The notes beneath the pieces were generated by a model that saw only the letters and a list, made by a program, of their open reading frames with translations, searched no databases and was not told the origin of the DNA. Positions 11,380 through 35,385 of a stretch of DNA of 64,000 bases are shown here, in pieces; positions within the stretch are counted from its first letter, which is position 1, and the number at the start of each line of letters is the position of its first letter. Source of the DNA: Sphingobacteriales bacterium (lineage in GTDB: Bacteria > Bacteroidota > Bacteroidia > Chitinophagales > Chitinophagaceae); NCBI GenBank assembly GCA_016185185.1, contig JACPOD010000012.1, positions 1 to 64,000 of the forward strand, given 5' to 3'. A program made the translations under genes and the position numbers.

Positions 11380-11408
11380 CCCTTCTCCTTATGGAGAAGG
11401 GGCGGGGT
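11380..11408 (+). repeat. GC-rich palindromic repeat (hairpin followed by GGGG), intergenic copy
   Basis: CCCTTCTCC at 11380-11388 pairs perfectly with GGAGAAGGG at 11393-11401, loop TTAT, followed by GCGGGG. It has the same design as the copies at 30602 and 34249, but sits between the GH5 and GH43 genes rather than inside an ORF. Confidence 0.7.
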
Positions 11409-11426
11409 TGAAAAATAATTGCCGTT

Positions 11427-27994: not shown

Positions 27995-30235
27995 TTATTT
28001 AACAAGCGTAAACGATACTTCTTTAACATGGTTACTGGCGCCGCCAATATATAATTTGAAATCACCTGGTTCGTATATCTTTTCCAGTTTATCATTAAAG
28101 AATTTTAAGTCTTCTGTTGTAATGATGAAGCTGACTTCTTTGGATTCACCCTTCTTTAAAAATATTTTTTGAAATCCTTTTAATTCTTTCACTGGCCTCA
28201 CCACACTGCCAAATAAATCCTGTATATATAATTGCACTGTTTCTTCTCCATCGTAGTTACCGGTGTTTTTAACGGTAACAGTAACCGTTAACTTTTCAGT
28301 TGGTTTGAATGATGATTTATTTAGTTTGATATCACTGTATTCAAAGTTGGTATAGCTTAGGCCATAGCCAAAAGCATACTTTGGATATAAAGACAAATCA
28401 ATATAAGCGGAACGATAGAAGCGGTCATTATCATTTTGCGCCGGACGGCCAGTGGTGTAATGATTATAATAAATAGGAATCTGTCCTTCTGTTAATGGAA
28501 AACTCATTGGCAATTTGCCCGATGGATTGTAATCGCCAAATAAAACATCAGCAATAGCATTACCTGCCTCTGTACCTAACCACCAGGTGTATAGAATGGA
28601 GGGAACATGATCAGCTGTCCAGTTAAAGACCAATGGTCTGCCCGCATTAATCATTACTACTACCGGTTTTCCGGTTGCCATTACTGCTTTAATTAACTCT
28701 TCCTGTACGCCGGGTAAATGAATATTGCTGCGGCTTTTTGCTTCGCCGGTCATATCTCTTGCCTCACCTACTTGTATCACAACAATGTCTGCTTGTTTGG
28801 CTGTTTCCACTGCTTCCGAAAAACCTGCTGTTGAACTATCATTGATATTGCATCCTTTTGCATACAGCAATTTTGCATCTGCATTTAGTTTACTTTTTAT
28901 CCCATCGTAAGTAGAAACGATTCTTGATGAATCATCCGGCCAGTCATAACTCCAGAAACCAAGGTTGTCGCTTACCGCTTTGATGAAAGGGCCAATCAAT
29001 GCAATGGTTTTTGTTTGTTTTGATAAGGGCAATGTTTGTTTCTCATTCTTCAACAATACAATACTTTTCTTCGCCATCTCTCTTTCAATCTTCCGGTTTT
29101 CTGCATTATTCCATTGTTGTTTTTCTCTTTCTTCATTACTGAATTTATAGGGGTCATCAAATAATCCCATCATAAACTTCATTCGTAAAATTCTTTTCAC
29201 AGCTTCATCAATCACACTCAGCTTTACTTTTCCAGCTTTTACGAGTTTCGATAAGTTTTGAATATAACTGCGGCTTTCCATATCCATATCACTGCCGGCA
29301 TTGGCTGCTAACATTGCTGCTTCGTAATTGTCTTTTGCATATCCATGATTGATCATTTCACCCACACTGCCCCAATCACTCACTACAAATCCCTTAAATT
29401 TCCACTGGCCTTTTAAAATATCTCTTTGCAAATATTTATTGCCTGTTGCCGGAATTCCATTTAAATCATTGAATGAATTCATAAAAGTGGCAACACCTGC
29501 ATCAGCTGCTGCTTTAAATGGAGGCAGATACACTTCATGCAATTGACGTAAACTCATATCAACGCTATTGTAATCTCTTCCACCAACAGCCGCACCATAA
29601 GCAGCAAAATGTTTGGCGCAAGCCATTACTGCATCCGTATTACCCAATCCTTTTCCCTGGAAACCTTTTACTCTTGCCGTAGCAATCAAAGAACCGAGAT
29701 AAGTATCTTCTCCTGCACCTTCCATTACTCTTCCCCAACGTGGGTCCCTTGCAATGTCCACCATTGGAGCAAATGTCCAGTGTACACCGGCTGCGGAACA
29801 TTCGGTTGCTGCCACTCTTGCTGATTGTTCAATTAAATTCATATCCCAACTGGCAGCTTCTGCCAATGGAATAGGAAAGATGGTGCGGTAACCATGAATC
29901 ACATCTTGTCCGAATAATAATGGAATTTTCAATCTTGTTTGCATAGCCAGTTCCTGTAACTCTCTTGTTCTTTTAGCACCGGTTACATTCAGCATAGAAC
30001 CAACTTTACCTGCTTTTACCTGGTCTAATAATTTATCATCATTGGTGAGCGGACCAGTAGCTGCCCACGGACCATTATACTGATTCATCTGCCCGATCTT
30101 TTCATCCAGCGTCATCAGTTTTAAAACAGAATCTACTTTTTGGTCAATTGTTTTCTTCTGTGCAAAGGCAGATAGACAAATAAAGGTAAATGCGCAAACA
30201 ATAAGTATGTACTTTTTTATTTTCATCCTAATCAT
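27995..30235 (-). CDS. bglX: GH3 beta-glucosidase (BglX type)
   Basis: 746 residues with a signal peptide (ends SAFAQ). GH3 N-terminal barrel: MTLDEKIGQMNQ, HWTFAPMVDIARDPRWGRVMEGAGEDTYL (split family motif), and the nucleophile Asp287 in KGFVVSDWGSV. The alpha/beta sandwich and C-terminal Fn3-like domain are complete (GYGLSYTNFEYSDI...). Periplasmic exo-beta-glucosidase is the family norm; Bacteroidota members include beta-1,2- and beta-1,6-active forms. ATG 30235 and ATG 30226 (MKIKKYIL) are both possible starts. The second GH3 lies 38 bases upstream, in the same orientation. Confidence 0.93.
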   Translation of the reverse strand: MIRMKIKKYILIVCAFTFICLSAFAQKKTIDQKVDSVLKLMTLDEKIGQMNQYNGPWAATGPLTNDDKLLDQVKAGKVGSMLNVTGAKRTRELQELAMQTRLKIPLLFGQDVIHGYRTIFPIPLAEAASWDMNLIEQSARVAATECSAAGVHWTFAPMVDIARDPRWGRVMEGAGEDTYLGSLIATARVKGFQGKGLGNTDAVMACAKHFAAYGAAVGGRDYNSVDMSLRQLHEVYLPPFKAAADAGVATFMNSFNDLNGIPATGNKYLQRDILKGQWKFKGFVVSDWGSVGEMINHGYAKDNYEAAMLAANAGSDMDMESRSYIQNLSKLVKAGKVKLSVIDEAVKRILRMKFMMGLFDDPYKFSNEEREKQQWNNAENRKIEREMAKKSIVLLKNEKQTLPLSKQTKTIALIGPFIKAVSDNLGFWSYDWPDDSSRIVSTYDGIKSKLNADAKLLYAKGCNINDSSTAGFSEAVETAKQADIVVIQVGEARDMTGEAKSRSNIHLPGVQEELIKAVMATGKPVVVMINAGRPLVFNWTADHVPSILYTWWLGTEAGNAIADVLFGDYNPSGKLPMSFPLTEGQIPIYYNHYTTGRPAQNDNDRFYRSAYIDLSLYPKYAFGYGLSYTNFEYSDIKLNKSSFKPTEKLTVTVTVKNTGNYDGEETVQLYIQDLFGSVVRPVKELKGFQKIFLKKGESKEVSFIITTEDLKFFNDKLEKIYEPGDFKLYIGGASNHVKEVSFTLVK

Positions 30236-30273: not shown

Positions 30274-32568
30274 TTATTTATTCCAGTTTACTTTACCAAC
30301 TTTTACCTGTTGAGAACTGCTGCCAATCATAATTTCAAATTCACCAGCTTCCCAACCATAACTCATATCATTATGGTAATATTTCAAATCATCGGTAGTG
30401 ATAGTAAACGATACTGTTTTGCTTTCACCAGCTTTCAAATCTATCTTTTGAAACCCTTTTAATTCTTTAACTGGTCTTGTGTTAGCGCCTACTACGTCGT
30501 GAATATATAATTGAACAATTTCTTTGCCATCAACTTTGCCACTGTTGGTTACGGTAACCGATGCTGTTAATGTTTGATTACCTTTTAAAGTGATTTTTCC
30601 TCCCTCTCCTTTGGAGAGGGTTGGGGAGAGGCTTATATCACTGTAATTAAAATTAGCATAGCTCAAGCCATAACCAAAAGGATAAACAGGGTCGTTACTT
30701 ACATCCAAATAGTTGCTGCGGAATTTTTGAAACCATTGACTATCGGGTAATGGGCGGCCAGTATTCTTGTGTGCATAATAGATAGGAACCTGTCCTACAT
30801 TTTGCGGCCAGGTAGTAGTGAGTTTGCCAGATGGATTTACATCACCAAACAAAACATCAGCAATGGCAGAACCGGCTTCACTTCCTCCAAACCATACATT
30901 CAATATAGCCGGAACATTTTCACTTTCCCATTTAATGGCCAATGGTCTTCCGGTGAATAAAACCAGGACAACCGGCTTGCCTGTTTTTACCAATGCTTTT
31001 AATAAGTCCTGTTGTACACCGGGAATTTCGATATTGCTCCTGCTGGATGATTCACCACTCATCTCTGCGCTTTCGCCCAATGCTGCAACAATCACATCCG
31101 CATCTTTAGAAACTTCCAATGCTTCTTTAATAATTTCCTCTGCCGGACGGGTATCTCTTTTGAAATCTTTACCAAACATGCCCGCTCTTTCTTCAAATTT
31201 TGCATCCGCATCTAAATTGCTTCCTTTGGCATACACTAATTTGGCTTTGTCACCTGCCACAGATTTTAATCCATCAATTAATGATATGGCTTTATCAAAT
31301 CTTGCCGCTACTGACCATGTGCCCGGCATATTTTCTTTAGCATCTACTAATGGACCAACCACTGCGATAGTCCCACTTTTCTTCAATGGCAAAATATTGT
31401 TTTGATTTTTCAATAATACAAAACAATCAGCGGCAATCTTTCTTGCTTCGGCACGGTTAGCTGCATTGAATACATCCGTCTTTGCACGGTTATCATCACA
31501 ATATTTATAAGGATTAGCGAATAATCCGAGTTTATATTTTGCTTCAAGAATTAAACGGCAGGCACGGTCAATATCTGCTTGTGATACTTTTCCTTCTTTT
31601 AAAGATTGGTTGAGTGTGGTTAAAAAACCTTCTCCTACCATATCCATATCTATACCTGCTTTTAATGCAAGAGCAGATACTGTTTGCAAATTTCCCAAAC
31701 CATGTGCTTCCATTTCATTGATGCCTGTATAATCCGTTACTACAAAACCTTTAAAGCCCCATTGTTTGCGTAATACATCCGTCATTAAAAATTTATTGGC
31801 CGTAGCAGGAACACCATTTACATCATTAAAAGAAGCCATCACACTTCCCACACCTGCATCTACTGCTGCTTTGTACGGCGGCATATATTCGTTAAACATT
31901 CTTGGAAAACTCATATCAGTAGTGTTATAATCACGACCAGCTTCCGCAGCGCCATACAAAGCATAGTGTTTTACACAAGCCAGGATGTTGGTGTTCTTTG
32001 ATAAATCACCCTGGTAACCTTTCACCATCGCTTTAGCAATAGCAGAACCAAGAAATGGGTCTTCACCATTTCCTTCAGCGATACGGCCCCAGCGTGGGTC
32101 ACGGGCAATATCCACCATAGGAGAGAAGGTCCAGCAAATACCATCGGCACTTGCTTCCAGTGCGGCAATTTGTGCACTGCGTTCAATGGCTTTCATGTCC
32201 CAGCTGCAACTTAATCCTAATGGAATAGGGAATACTGTTTCATAACCATGAATGACATCCATACCGAATATCAAAGGGATTTTTAAACGGCTTTCTTCCA
32301 CCGCTACTCTTTGCACATCTTTTATCTTGGCTACGGATTTAATGTTAAAGAGTCCGCCCACTTTTCCTTCCCGGATTTTTTTACCAATGTCAGCGCTTTG
32401 TGCCTGGCCTGTTACGATATCACCGCTGCCGGGGAGATTTAACTGGCCCAATTTTTCTTCCAATGTCATTTTCTTCATCAACCCGTCAATAAAGATTTTC
32501 ATTTTTGCATCCTGCGCATTGGCACTAATGGCAAAACTCATTACCAATGCAAACAACCATTTTTTCAT
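30274..32568 (-). CDS. bglX: GH3 beta-glucosidase with an in-frame palindromic-repeat insertion
   Basis: Start set at ATG 32568 (MKKWLFALVMSFAISANAQ, a signal peptide); the longer in-frame extension is derived from the repeat at 32616 and would bury the signal. The protein is about 764 residues with complete GH3 domains: MTLEEKLGQLNLP, CWTFSPMVDIARDPRWGRIAEGNGEDPFL, nucleophile Asp in KGFVVTDYTGIN, and the C-terminal Fn3-like domain. Between YSDIS and KITLKGNQTL lies LSPTLSKGEGG, encoded by a GC-rich palindrome (30602-30631) and absent from the sister GH3 at 27995. The insert falls at the edge of the Fn3-like domain, so the enzyme can be active. Confidence 0.92.
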   Translation of the reverse strand: MKKWLFALVMSFAISANAQDAKMKIFIDGLMKKMTLEEKLGQLNLPGSGDIVTGQAQSADIGKKIREGKVGGLFNIKSVAKIKDVQRVAVEESRLKIPLIFGMDVIHGYETVFPIPLGLSCSWDMKAIERSAQIAALEASADGICWTFSPMVDIARDPRWGRIAEGNGEDPFLGSAIAKAMVKGYQGDLSKNTNILACVKHYALYGAAEAGRDYNTTDMSFPRMFNEYMPPYKAAVDAGVGSVMASFNDVNGVPATANKFLMTDVLRKQWGFKGFVVTDYTGINEMEAHGLGNLQTVSALALKAGIDMDMVGEGFLTTLNQSLKEGKVSQADIDRACRLILEAKYKLGLFANPYKYCDDNRAKTDVFNAANRAEARKIAADCFVLLKNQNNILPLKKSGTIAVVGPLVDAKENMPGTWSVAARFDKAISLIDGLKSVAGDKAKLVYAKGSNLDADAKFEERAGMFGKDFKRDTRPAEEIIKEALEVSKDADVIVAALGESAEMSGESSSRSNIEIPGVQQDLLKALVKTGKPVVLVLFTGRPLAIKWESENVPAILNVWFGGSEAGSAIADVLFGDVNPSGKLTTTWPQNVGQVPIYYAHKNTGRPLPDSQWFQKFRSNYLDVSNDPVYPFGYGLSYANFNYSDISLSPTLSKGEGGKITLKGNQTLTASVTVTNSGKVDGKEIVQLYIHDVVGANTRPVKELKGFQKIDLKAGESKTVSFTITTDDLKYYHNDMSYGWEAGEFEIMIGSSSQQVKVGKVNWNK
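30602..30631 (+). repeat. GC-rich palindromic repeat inside the GH3 coding region
   Basis: CCCTCTCC (30602-30609) and GGAGAGGG (30613-30620) form a perfect hairpin with loop TTT, followed by TTGGGGAGAGG. It is read in frame on the minus strand by the GH3 gene. Confidence 0.75.
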
Positions 32569-32615
32569 TGCTTTAATTTTTATATAGTCAATAATCGATT
32601 TTCTATTGAGCATTT

Positions 32616-32635
32616 GTTGCGTCGCACACTTGTAC
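32616..32635 (-). repeat. 20-bp inverted-repeat partner of 35316-35335
   Basis: The minus strand here reads GTACAAGTGTGCGACGCAAC, identical to the plus strand at 35316-35335. It lies just upstream of the GH3 gene and enters the in-frame extension of that ORF as YKCATQ. Confidence 0.8.
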
Positions 32636-32660
32636 AACAGCAATACTATTCATCTTTTTA

Positions 32661-32727
32661 GAACCACGGCGACACTACGACACAGAGGTACACTGTGTTA
32701 GTTTGTGTCTCTCTGTACCTGTGGTTC
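32661..32727. repeat. Imperfect inverted repeat between GDSL esterase and GH3
   Basis: GAACCAC at 32661-32667 pairs with GTGGTTC at 32721-32727. The inner arms partly match (GACACAGAGGTACA on the left and TGTCTCTCTGTACC on the right). It resembles the short intergenic repeats of Bacteroidota genomes and could form a large hairpin between the two genes. No reading frame is evident. Confidence 0.5.
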
Positions 32728-32780
32728 AATTTAATCTTCTTTACCCGGCAGACTCCTCCTTCGTCGGATTCAGACGGGTG

Positions 32781-33467
32781 TTATTTTAAATAAGGTTTCA
32801 GCAGCTTTTGCCAAATCTTATATCCTTTGGCATTCATATGCAGCTTATCTTCTGTAAAAATATCATCCAAAGGTGTTCCATCGGGCATTAACATATGATG
32901 GTACACATCAATAAACCTTGTTTTTCTTTTGCTGGCCAGGAAATTTTTTATCATCACATTCGCCACGTTGTATTTGGCCATCAGATTTTTCCTGGATGGG
33001 CTTGGTTTCATTGAAACATAAATAACGGGTATCTTCTTGTATTTACTCCTGATCATTGTAAAAAGCTGGAAAAAGCGTTCTGCCACCTGTGCCGGGTAGA
33101 GCGTACTGTCGTATGCTAAATCATTCTCGCCAAAATAAATTACTATTTGATTTGGCTGGTATTTAAAAATAACATCATCGGCCCGGTAGATAACATCTTT
33201 AAGCGTAGAGCCACCAAAGGCCCTGTTTAATATTTTGTGTTTGGGAAAATAATCCTGCACATCCGTCCATTTGGTAAAAGAGGAACTGCCAATGAAAAGT
33301 ATTTGATTCGGTTTGGGCATGGCAATACTGTCCTGCTGTTTGAATTTTTGTATATCCTCCCAGTAGTCAGGTTTTTTATCCTGTGCCATTAACGGAACAG
33401 AAAATATTACAAACAGGAAACTGTATAATAATTTTTTATTCAACTGTAATAAGTTTAGATTTTTCAC
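32781..33467 (-). CDS. SGNH/GDSL-type esterase, secreted
   Basis: 228 residues starting at GTG 33467, because the only in-frame ATG codons downstream would destroy the signal peptide (LLYSFLFVIFSVPLMAQ). SGNH blocks: FIGSSSF with predicted nucleophile Ser62 (Ser replaces the usual Asp before it), NRAFGGSTL, YFGENDLAYD (Asn block) and TEDKLHMNAKGY (Asp/His). The family commonly deacetylates glycans. It overlaps the end of the upstream GH43-discoidin gene by 32 bases, so the two are coupled and probably act on the same decorated polysaccharide. Confidence 0.87.
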   Translation of the reverse strand: MKNLNLLQLNKKLLYSFLFVIFSVPLMAQDKKPDYWEDIQKFKQQDSIAMPKPNQILFIGSSSFTKWTDVQDYFPKHKILNRAFGGSTLKDVIYRADDVIFKYQPNQIVIYFGENDLAYDSTLYPAQVAERFFQLFTMIRSKYKKIPVIYVSMKPSPSRKNLMAKYNVANVMIKNFLASKRKTRFIDVYHHMLMPDGTPLDDIFTEDKLHMNAKGYKIWQKLLKPYLK

Positions 33468-35385
33468 TTACACCATTTTCATTGATTGCTTCTATAATGA
33501 AATAATATGTTTTCATCAGATCCATTCCCTTATAATAATACTCGTTGGCATCATGTACCATAATGCAGTTGTATAATTTATCCGGCATTGTGCCAAAGTA
33601 AATATTGTATGCATAGGCGTTGTCAACAGGCTGCCATTTGATCCAGGCACTCCTTTTATCTTTTTCTGTTCGTAAAACAAAAAATTGTTTAACGGGTGAA
33701 GGCTTTTCTCCATTGCCATTTCCAAAAACCCTTAACCCGCTGATGGCAAATTTACCGGTAGGCATATGAATATTTTCAACTTTAATGAATCTTGCCTGTA
33801 CCGGTGTGGTTAACTCAACATATTCATGCGGAATATCTGTTTTATTATTGCTCTTATCAACTAATACATTCCACTTTTTACCATCGGTTGAATAATACAT
33901 TTTGTATTGATGATATTGTTCGCCTCCGTTGATTTTACCGAGATGATCATCCGCCACATCCTGATCAGCATAATTTATTTGTACTGCATTTACAATGGAA
34001 ATATTTCCTAAATCAGTTTGAACCCATTCACCGGTTTTTGAAGTGGTGGCACTCCAGTATGTTTTGATGCTTTCATCATTAATATTATTTGCATAATGAC
34101 TGCCAAGTGTTGAAGAAACTAAAACGGGTTTTTTATAATTCAGCAACATCCAGCCGGTGAAAGCTCCGGCTCCCCCACCCCCCAACGGGGGGATTTGAGA
34201 AAGATCATTATAAGATGAAACATTTACTTTTTGTGCGACTACTAAAGTCCCTCCTTTGGAGGGGTTTGGGGAGGCTGGCAGATACAAAGGGTAATCACCA
34301 AATGCTGTATTGCACCACATAACTCCATCTTTATCAAAACCGGCGGGCCATATGCCTAATCTTCTTTCAAATGTATTTTTTACATTTATACCAAGCGTTG
34401 ATGTGTGCCAGTAATTATTCCAATTATCTGTAAACGTACTTCCATGTCCCGGCCCACGAACAAAACCTCCCGGCTTAAAACTTATGGGGTCTGATTGTGG
34501 TGTAAATGGCCCTAAGGGTGCATCACCCACTAATGTTGCATCTGCAGAGCCACTCATTTCAGTGCCGGGTGCACAATATTGTAAATAATATTTTCCGTTA
34601 TGTTTTGTCATCCATGACCCTTCAATAAACGGGTCAAGAAAAGTATTGTCCATATATTCACCAAAGCGTTGCCATCCATACCGCCACGATTCAAGTGAAT
34701 ATGTTTCAACTCTTGTACCAATGGGTTTAAATGTCTTTCGGTCTAATTCAATTCCGTACAATGGATAGCGATTGCTGCTTCCATTATACATATAAAATCT
34801 TTCATCATCATCCGTAAAAAAAGCAGGATCCCATCCGCCAATATCAAAAGAATCTACCAATGGTTTCCATTCATTGGCTTTTGGGTTAGTGCTCATCCAC
34901 AGTGTAAATTTTCTTGTGTAGGTTGAGCCAAAGACGAGCATGGTGTCACCTACAATGCCAACAGCAGGCGCACAAAGCTCATCATACGTATTCGTATTCC
35001 ATGGACGAAGAAATTTTTTGGAGATAAAATTCCATTTGAGCATATCATTACTCCACCAGTAACCCCATTGGTTGGTAGAGAATAAATAATACTCACCTTT
35101 ATAATTTACAATAACCGGGTCGGCGGTGGCACGATGACGACCCCATTCACTGAAATTGGGAATGGGAGTGTAGCCATAATCTATATTGATGGGATTGCAA
35201 TAAGTTGCCCCCCCGCCCCCCGAAGGGTGGATTTGAGAAGAAGCCTTTATGTACAATAATAAAAAGCTGAATAGAATTATGGGTGTACAAGTACACCGCC
35301 GAATAAAGCTATGGCGTACAAGTGTGCGACGCAACGGAAGCCTGTTAAAAGTTACTGAAACTGGTATCATAAAATTTATTCTCAT
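33436..35385 (-). CDS. GH43-like hydrolase with discoidin (CBM32-type) and Fn3 domains
   Basis: 649 residues: extended N-terminus and membrane-type signal (CTPIILFSFLLLYIKASSQ), a five-bladed GH43-like catalytic region (about 60-365; GRHRATADPVIVNYKGEYYLFSTN, GGWDPAFFTDDDERFYMYNG), an F5/8 type C (discoidin) carbohydrate-binding domain (about 415-555; YWSATTSKTGEWVQTDLG, ARFIKVENI) and an Fn3-like C-terminus (about 560-649). The start overlaps the DoxX stop as ATGA, supporting ATG 35385. Three palindromic repeats and part of a fourth repeat family are read in frame: IHPSGGGGA, IPPLGGGGAGAF, SPNPSKGG and RTLVRHSF. Substrate is unknown; xylosidase or arabinosidase are usual guesses. Confidence 0.87.
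   Translation of the reverse strand: MRINFMIPVSVTFNRLPLRRTLVRHSFIRRCTCTPIILFSFLLLYIKASSQIHPSGGGGATYCNPINIDYGYTPIPNFSEWGRHRATADPVIVNYKGEYYLFSTNQWGYWWSNDMLKWNFISKKFLRPWNTNTYDELCAPAVGIVGDTMLVFGSTYTRKFTLWMSTNPKANEWKPLVDSFDIGGWDPAFFTDDDERFYMYNGSSNRYPLYGIELDRKTFKPIGTRVETYSLESWRYGWQRFGEYMDNTFLDPFIEGSWMTKHNGKYYLQYCAPGTEMSGSADATLVGDAPLGPFTPQSDPISFKPGGFVRGPGHGSTFTDNWNNYWHTSTLGINVKNTFERRLGIWPAGFDKDGVMWCNTAFGDYPLYLPASPNPSKGGTLVVAQKVNVSSYNDLSQIPPLGGGGAGAFTGWMLLNYKKPVLVSSTLGSHYANNINDESIKTYWSATTSKTGEWVQTDLGNISIVNAVQINYADQDVADDHLGKINGGEQYHQYKMYYSTDGKKWNVLVDKSNNKTDIPHEYVELTTPVQARFIKVENIHMPTGKFAISGLRVFGNGNGEKPSPVKQFFVLRTEKDKRSAWIKWQPVDNAYAYNIYFGTMPDKLYNCIMVHDANEYYYKGMDLMKTYYFIIEAINENGVSEKSKLITVE
34172..34199 (-). 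repeat. GC-rich palindromic repeat inside GH43-discoidin ORF (copy 1)
   Basis: The plus strand has CCCCCACCCCCC-AAC-GGGGGG followed by ATTTGAG. On the minus strand it is read in frame as QIPPLGGGGAG. It shares the trailing ATTTGAG and the architecture with the copy at 35207. Confidence 0.65.
34249..34274 (+). repeat. GC-rich palindromic repeat inside GH43-discoidin ORF (copy 2)
   Basis: CCCTCC-TTT-GGAGGGG followed by TTTGGGGAGG, the same design as the copy in the GH3 gene at 30602. Read in frame on the minus strand it gives SPNPSKGG. Confidence 0.7.
35207..35236 (-). repeat. GC-rich repeat inside GH43-discoidin ORF (copy 3)
   Basis: The plus strand has a C-rich stretch ending CCCCCC-GAA-GGGTGG then ATTTGAG, matching the copy at 34172. 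Read in frame on the minus strand it gives QIHPSGGGGAT, just after the signal sequence. Confidence 0.6.
35316..35335 (+). repeat. 20-bp inverted-repeat partner of 32616-32635
   Basis: GTACAAGTGTGCGACGCAAC occurs here and, inverted, at 32616-32635. It sits in the 5' coding part of the GH43-discoidin gene. A palindrome GGTGTACAAGTACACC lies just before it (35282-35297). Confidence 0.8.

Follow-up and report, generated by a model that had tools for sequence, protein, structure and literature searches.

How does a GC-rich palindromic repeat come to lie in frame inside protein-coding genes, and by what means might it have reached them? The question is raised by a stretch of 64,000 nucleotides from a Sphingobacteriales bacterium (assembly GCA_016185185.1, contig JACPOD010000012.1, positions 1 to 64,000), hereafter called the window, in which a preliminary description had reported a hairpin followed by a run of G in frame once in a GH3 gene and three times in a GH43 gene. 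The sequences and the open reading frames (30274-32643 for GH3, 33436-35385 for GH43) confirm that all four coding copies are in frame, one of the three in GH43 being degenerate. A further copy reported between genes at 11380 is also present, with one mismatch in its mirror arm. The window is contig C18 of a 2.84 Mb genome assembled in 122 contigs and 81% complete, whose proteins suggest a Bacteroidota of the Chitinophaga kind. Here we describe evidence that these repeats are probably non-autonomous copies of a small mobile element, in which a DUF559 gene lies between inverted triplex motifs; the movement of this element is inferred.

Table 1. Positions of the triplex motifs and of their host genes in the window
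Feature	Coordinates	Strand	Description	Remark
Copy A	30602..30631	+	Class II triplex motif in GH3	Absent from 29/29 best-scoring orthologues
Copy A, pyrimidine arm	30602-30609			
Copy A, purine arm	30613-30620			
Copy A, third arm	30624-30631			
Copy B	34165..34192	-	Hairpin CCCCCC-GTT-GGGGGG plus TGGGGGAG	In frame in GH43 (IPPLGGGGAG)
Copy C	34248..34274	+	CCCTCC-TTT-GGAGGG then GGGAGG	In frame in GH43 (ASPNPSKGGT)
Inverted pair B+C	34165..34274	-	Third arms outside	
Copy D	35207..35230	-	Degenerate motif near GH43 N-terminus	IHPSGGGGATY
Copy E	11380..11412	+	CCCTTCTCC-TTAT-GGAGAAGGG then GCGGGGTTGAA	Intergenic
Sister GH3 gene	27995..30235	-		No insert
GH3 host gene	30274..32568	-	764 aa	
GH43 / F5-F8 type C host gene	33436..35385	-	649 aa	

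The repeats are intrastrand-triplex motifs of the BoxC/PIT/TM kind

Copy A has the letters CCCTCTCC-TTT-GGAGAGGG-TTG-GGGAGAGG, where the final arm is the mirror of the purine arm; it is in frame with GH3 and reads SLSPTLSKGEGG on the minus strand. Since the G-run mirrors the purine arm, the element is a BoxC/PIT/TM intrastrand-triplex motif rather than a plain hairpin, which the preliminary description had overlooked together with the linked nuclease gene, DUF559. Copies B and D do not satisfy the strict mirror rule: B is degraded, and D, with one arm mismatch, is missed both by our triplex finder and by the covariance model R1 described below. Besides its single mismatch, the mirror arm of copy E has T in place of A. 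The finder, which demands a mirrored third arm, returns three matches in the window (30602, 34249 and, with one mismatch, 11380) and none in 8 dinucleotide shuffles of it. With the hairpin pattern CCCTCYCC-NNN-GGRGAGGG and up to 3 mismatches the window gives 1 match, compared to a shuffle mean of 0.09, with at least one match in 9 of 100 shuffles. Genome-wide, the strict hairpin with up to 2 mismatches occurs at only 4 sites because the arm sequences vary.

Repeats of the BoxC type have been known since the 1990s. Their layout has been identified as a class II purine-motif intrastrand triplex, formerly called BoxC and PIT (Holder et al. 2015, PMC4666352). Copies A and C share with it the pyrimidine arm, the purine arm and the mirrored third arm (G.GC, A/T.AT), as does E with one mismatch. 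The class II layout, the occurrence in many phyla and the inverted pairs, also found in E. coli, are further likenesses. In contrast, the 23 copies of E. coli MG1655 are always intergenic in that account, with no mobility gene beside them, whereas copies here also lie in frame within genes and are linked to DUF559. An intergenic location is, however, a property reported for one strain (MG1655) and not a definition, and the window repeats belong to this known kind. The E. coli motif forms a triplex in vitro, which has not been shown for the window copies, and it has been linked to local variability in E. coli; for a stable triplex in vivo Holder et al. found no support (PMC4666352). Their main text uses none of the terms Bacteroidetes, open reading frame and in-frame. 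In Enterobacter sp. 638 one hundred hairpins of the form CCCTCTCCC-XX(X)-GGGAGAGGG have been described (PMC2869309). An exact gapped pattern run on genome contigs found at least 117 stretches from more than ten phyla.

The window also holds other repeat families. A second repeat, TTGCGTCGCACACTTGTAC, lies at 32617-32635 (+) upstream of the GH3 start and at 35316-35334 (-) inside the N-terminal coding part of GH43, and GTTGCGTCGCA occurs near the start of the GH43 ORF of locus L171. Two further intergenic palindrome-like stretches were seen by eye between 32660 and 32780, around CACAGAGGTACACTGTG and GACTCCTCCTTCGTCGGATTCAGAC.

Distribution of the motif in the genome

R1, a covariance model built from 38 training sequences and applied with E up to 5 (its E-values are rough), lists 62 candidate places in the genome. 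Five of these were training sequences: C110:1464 and the four window matches at 30603, 11383, 34165 and 34248 (E 7.6e-5 to 0.014). R1 misses at least three motifs that flank DUF559 genes of the same genome, two at L225 and one at L245, so the 62 places are neither complete nor, given the permissive threshold, free of chance matches. The strict triplex rule, which is absent from R1 itself, is satisfied by 52 of the 62. Inside ORFs of at least 150 aa lie 17 of the 62; this test is mechanical, and a 189-aa ORF at C19:94400 looks spurious. Judged by eye, the host ORFs include MurC, NuoL, HemF, TrpF, a carbamoyltransferase, LeuS and an IcmF-like mutase (six host ORFs of this genome were run against Pfam).

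The three strands of the motif covary. Across 58 hairpins the identity of the third arm to its own purine arm is 0.959, compared to 0.791 when arms are permuted (0/2000 permutations), and the third arm is a perfect mirror in 46 of the 58, compared to 7.8 expected by permutation (0/2000). Neighbouring motifs less than 250 nt apart (n=10) lie on opposite strands with the third arms outside in 9 cases and inside in none; the remaining pair is on the same strand.

Coding copies compared with orthologues

That the sister GH3 gene lacks the insert had already been pointed out, and conservation of the segments in distant orthologues had been named as the result that would refute an insertion. The sister gene does lack it, and the nine extra residues are found in none of 29 aligned orthologues (64-94% identity), the best-scoring among 80 genomes with a match, own genome included; the closest is a same-genus protein with 94% identity. 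As judged from this alignment, the GH3 copy is an insert. The DNA flanks have diverged from those of the orthologues, and no target-site duplication is visible. The suggestion that palindromic elements spread through coding sequence is thereby supported, with the spreading itself inferred and not observed.

In GH43 the best-scoring 29 of 62 orthologues were aligned, and 3 of them (L169, L170 and L171), on scattered branches, carry a comparable motif pair in the same loop. The L170 pair falls below the strict rule, and the L171 pair has other arms with the mirror kept (CTCCCCC/GGGGGAG/GAGGGGG and CCTTCCC/GGGAAGG/GGATGGG). L187 has a shorter remnant in the loop, plus an N-terminal copy resembling D at the same place; in the remaining orthologues the finder saw no motif pair. 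On a GH43 tree of 30 sequences, built with the insert region left out, the four carriers require four changes, and a single origin, that is one clade of carriers, is rejected (AU p 0.0185), with only 7 of 27 inner branches well supported. The GH43 loop was thus entered on more than one occasion, or else the pair spread laterally.

The left end of the window pair, GCCTCCCCAAACCCCTCCAAAGGAGGGACTTTAG, is nearly that of a DUF559 element in metG of G026, and it is also close to an end of the cut-short DUF559 copy at L245 in the genome studied here. On the strength of this likeness we infer that the inverted pair B+C may be a DUF559 element that has lost its gene. In G006 one GH43 motif is identical to a motif at a DUF559 gene. 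The L245 copy itself (G000:C74) lies in an adenine deaminase-like gene, the frame of which is broken after the element.

A DUF559 gene between matching motifs

Between motifs an extra domain was found in leuS-like ORFs (G028, Cytophagales MAG), a priA-like ORF (Gastranaerophilales) and a restriction-modification-like ORF (Prolixibacteraceae), which Pfam identifies as DUF559 (PF04480). The genome studied here has three PF04480 matches, one protein matching with E 1.7e-38. The sole PDB match of DUF559 is 3hrl, 'Endonuclease-Like Protein' (E 3.8e-20), and E8, D37, E48, D50, H54 and D63 are kept in 99-100% of 79 DUF559 domains. The PF04480 match and these residues place DUF559 in a Vsr-like nuclease family, its nuclease activity being predicted only.

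The DUF559 loci were sampled from 50 of 58 places in relatives and 30 of 101 places in genomes chosen for the motif. A motif no more than 260 nt away accompanies 57 of the 76 distinct domains on one side or more, and 32 of them on both sides, with none in shuffles; three shuffle replicates of the DUF559 loci contain no triplex motif. A looser scan of the 19 domains without a strict motif in this range found a possible one near 4. In loci chosen only for DUF559 (78 domain matches, some repeated), the domain is no more than 200 nt away for 117 of the 156 triplex motifs, and beyond 500 nt from it there are 20 motifs in about 146 kb. Duplicate domains, dropped for n=76, are kept in this count of 156 and in that of 164 hairpins below. 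For 73 domains with enough flank, motifs pointing outward occur within 150 nt on both sides in 22 and on at least one side in 36; an inward motif is present in 29, often in nested inverted pairs outside Bacteroidota.

The two sides of a gene also match each other. Among 47 distinct purine arms near DUF559, arm identity is 0.875 across the two sides of one gene versus 0.707 between loci (0/2000 permutations), and identical arms stand on both sides of one gene in 11 of 32 cases versus 2.7% between loci. Of the 164 strand-counted hairpins near DUF559, 54 have a perfect mirror and 6 a perfect direct repeat as third arm, with no perfect mirror upstream. As a separate observation, the Nomurabacteria genome of L061 (G162) has six DUF559 matches in only 0.8 Mb.

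In-frame fusion of DUF559 into host genes

In 20 of the 76 domains DUF559 is fused in frame into a host ORF such as leuS, metG, aroC or priA, fusion meaning here that the frame stays open over 60 or more codons to one side of the domain and over 100 or more to the other. Every strict flanking motif in these cases is read through. In AroC and MetRS two stretches of the protein match the host Pfam family, with DUF559 outside the best one; the position of the second host stretch is not given in the Pfam output.

LeuS accepts DUF559 at two sites, each found both filled and empty. Site 1 is empty in 1 protein (32 residues) and filled in 5 (183-252 residues); site 2 is empty in 5 (29-36 residues) and filled in 2 (193-196 residues). 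In five genomes that are 95-100% complete (G009, G015, G028, G030 and G032) the sole LeuS over the family cut-off is free of stops and holds DUF559. Two genomes were not counted: G014 (72% complete), where one of two interrupted LeuS exceeds the cut-off, and G176, where the LeuS pieces are on two contigs. The G015 leuS (L202 / L226) carries a DUF559 domain at each of the two sites and, ahead of KMSKS, a lone motif, and the LeuS over the cut-off in G000 carries a lone motif. LeuS is essential, and therefore the interrupted protein must either work as it is or be spliced. No splicing domain was detected at E 0.001 in a Pfam run on three fused proteins or fragments, without a dedicated search. 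The leuS cases point to an essential synthetase at work with a nuclease domain of ~100 residues, set within an insert of ~150-220 residues; that the interrupted host proteins are functional is inferred.

A second recurrent host, by eye, are IcmF-type mutase-like ORFs, with DUF559 at L213, L229, L234 and L275. An ORF of this type in the genome studied here holds a motif-like copy (C79:59585).

Co-occurrence of motif and DUF559

From the motif loci (at least 117) 48 genomes were hand-chosen for spread, three of them (those of L039, L082 and L091) already known to be DUF559-positive. DUF559 is present in 43 of these 48 (40 of 45 without the three) versus 25 of 59 relatives, own genome included (Fisher 2.7e-7 for 43 of 48); the two sets comprise different taxa. 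Among the relatives it is found in 13 of 14 R1-positive versus 12 of 45 R1-negative genomes (p 1.4e-5), an association that is partly circular because R1 was trained on DUF559 flanks. A pattern free of R1 and near that of the preliminary description gives 6 of 7 versus 19 of 52 genomes (p 0.035).

When the ORFs of 80 motif loci were clustered by blastp, one cluster was adjacent to the motif in 4 of 4 loci, an example being the L091 ORF, which holds DUF559. In this coarse test no other cluster of at least three loci had a motif nearby in all of them; the largest, ABC transporter-like by eye, comprises 23 ORFs in 18 loci, 9 of them near a motif.

The motif also occurs in genomes in which DUF559 was not found. 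G038 has it and no DUF559. The E. coli genome among 14 controls gave no DUF559 match, and one Enterobacter DUF559 gene had no blastn match in 20,395 E. coli records. As E. coli has BoxC, its copies are either kept in the absence of DUF559 or rely on a different enzyme.

Discussion

Our analysis leads to a model in which the full element would consist of a gene for a Vsr-like DUF559 nuclease between two inverted intrastrand-triplex motifs with the third arms outermost, the copies in the window being single ends plus one pair of ends. When single-stranded, on the lagging-strand template or during repair, the motif could form a hairpin joined by a third strand. This folded motif may be recognised by the DUF559 protein, which would nick at or near it and so assist in copying or pasting the element, or one end alone, to a new position; structure recognition, cleavage and movement are all inferred. 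Read by hand, five of the six frames of the consensus motif contain no stop, and where DUF559 is fused its frame continues open across both element ends. Hence a copy of a length that preserves the frame can occupy a loop of a host protein and undergo translation with it. Such a copy may serve as a linker or extra domain, and frame-breaking copies would be lost by selection.

This arrangement works like REP sequences and their RAYT transposases, which comprise small dispersed palindromes and a nuclease-type gene flanked by copies (PMC6006769, PMC3733652), with some REP palindromes in frame in genes, including tnpAREP itself (PMC3733652); intragenic palindromes of other families are thus already in print. 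It fails the defining features and is therefore not classed as REP/RAYT: no GT[AG]G or CGTC foot was seen at the hairpin (in motif listings, by eye only), a third mirrored arm is present, and the partner is DUF559 rather than an HUH Y1 transposase. Rickettsia palindromic elements likewise lie in frame in ORFs (as cited in PMC3733652). Homing endonuclease genes, those of the EDxHD family included, and inteins resemble the fused cases in placing nuclease coding sequence within conserved genes (PMC9403480), but DUF559 elements end in triplex motifs, and derivatives without the nuclease are common. Neither a tie of DUF559 to triplex repeats nor the in-frame use of BoxC/PIT/TM motifs was found in print among open-licence PMC papers. 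For the Rickettsia elements we know of no partner nuclease gene.

Several other readings have to be weighed. The peptides are rich in Pro and Gly, as ordinary loop sequence might be, but a reading as such loops or as chance hairpins is refuted by their absence from all 29 best-scoring GH3 orthologues, by the lack of matches in 8 shuffles and by the three-strand covariation, and the same motif is found outside ORFs as well; we give it next to no credence. It also appears very improbable that the repeats are REP-like elements moved by a RAYT (Y1_Tnp, PF01797) transposase. The genome does have 5 PF01797 matches, and Bacteroidetes RAYTs of subclass 2.6 are described as bordered by atypical hairpins that also have copies in the genome (PMC6006769); however, no triplex motif lies in these 5 Y1_Tnp loci, some of which have other palindromes (by eye), and PF01797 shows no association with the motif in relatives (11 of 14 R1-positive versus 33 of 45 R1-negative, p = 1), two motif carriers, G014 (22 R1 matches, 72% complete) and G026 (4), having no PF01797 match. 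RAYT was rejected as the mobiliser on these grounds. Separately, at L009, 1214-1300 and 1900-2070, a Y1_Tnp match is flanked by several CCTGTCAGGTG-type palindromes (by eye) and is likely a REPtron of a different repeat family in this genome, and its best PF01797 match (L005 1501-1842) has an in-frame TGA and may be decayed.

The motif might instead be a passive, instability-prone sequence and DUF559 a repair nuclease that is merely its neighbour, or that works on it but causes no movement. The local variability with which Holder et al. connect the motif in E. coli (PMC4666352) fits this idea, as does the Caulobacter DUF559 protein VsrA, a predicted mismatch-repair nuclease (PMC12907096). Filled and empty sites, scattered GH43 carriers, matched sides and unrelated hosts are hard to account for without movement, and we consider it unlikely. 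We attach an equally low probability to a unit that is mobilised in trans by an unrelated enzyme, with DUF559 as cargo or as a homing nuclease whose part is confined to converting empty alleles. As homing would predict, the same loops (GH43, LeuS) carry inserts in several genera; a DUF559 gene has been placed in the EDxHD homing endonuclease family (PMC9403480), and in Legionella, segments that combine a transposase with DUF559 are hotspots of recombination (PMC12308824). But the inserts also occur in many different genes, and the coarse clustering of 80 loci revealed no other cluster of three or more loci that is near the motif throughout.

An element with DUF559 between its triplex ends remains our preferred explanation, and it faces difficulties of its own. 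No movement has been observed, and insertion ends and target-site duplications are unresolved. DUF559 domains without a motif (19/76), DUF559 in relatives without an R1 match (12/45) and the motif without detected DUF559 in E. coli and G038 count against it, as do E. coli copies with no mobility genes found beside them (PMC4666352). DUF559 may moreover have other roles, as in Caulobacter mismatch repair (PMC12907096) and the Legionella hotspots (PMC12308824). Taken more broadly, the idea is that BoxC/PIT/TM motifs are the ends of widespread, undescribed mobile elements whose DUF559 protein reads the intrastrand triplex, which are translated through and so colonise essential genes without splicing, and whose non-autonomous offspring are the dispersed repeats. 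For this wider proposition the balance tips only just in favour.

Filled and empty sites are present among the orthologues of both GH3 and LeuS. Segments of the form PNPLPxGEG or LTPxLSxGE recur in protein databases, and the wider proposition, if true, would account for them. For a mobile element, recognising its own ends by means of a nuclease that reads a triplex would be out of the ordinary. The DUF559 element could explain how a long-known repeat spreads, and a candidate enzyme makes the spread of the BoxC-type repeat directly testable.
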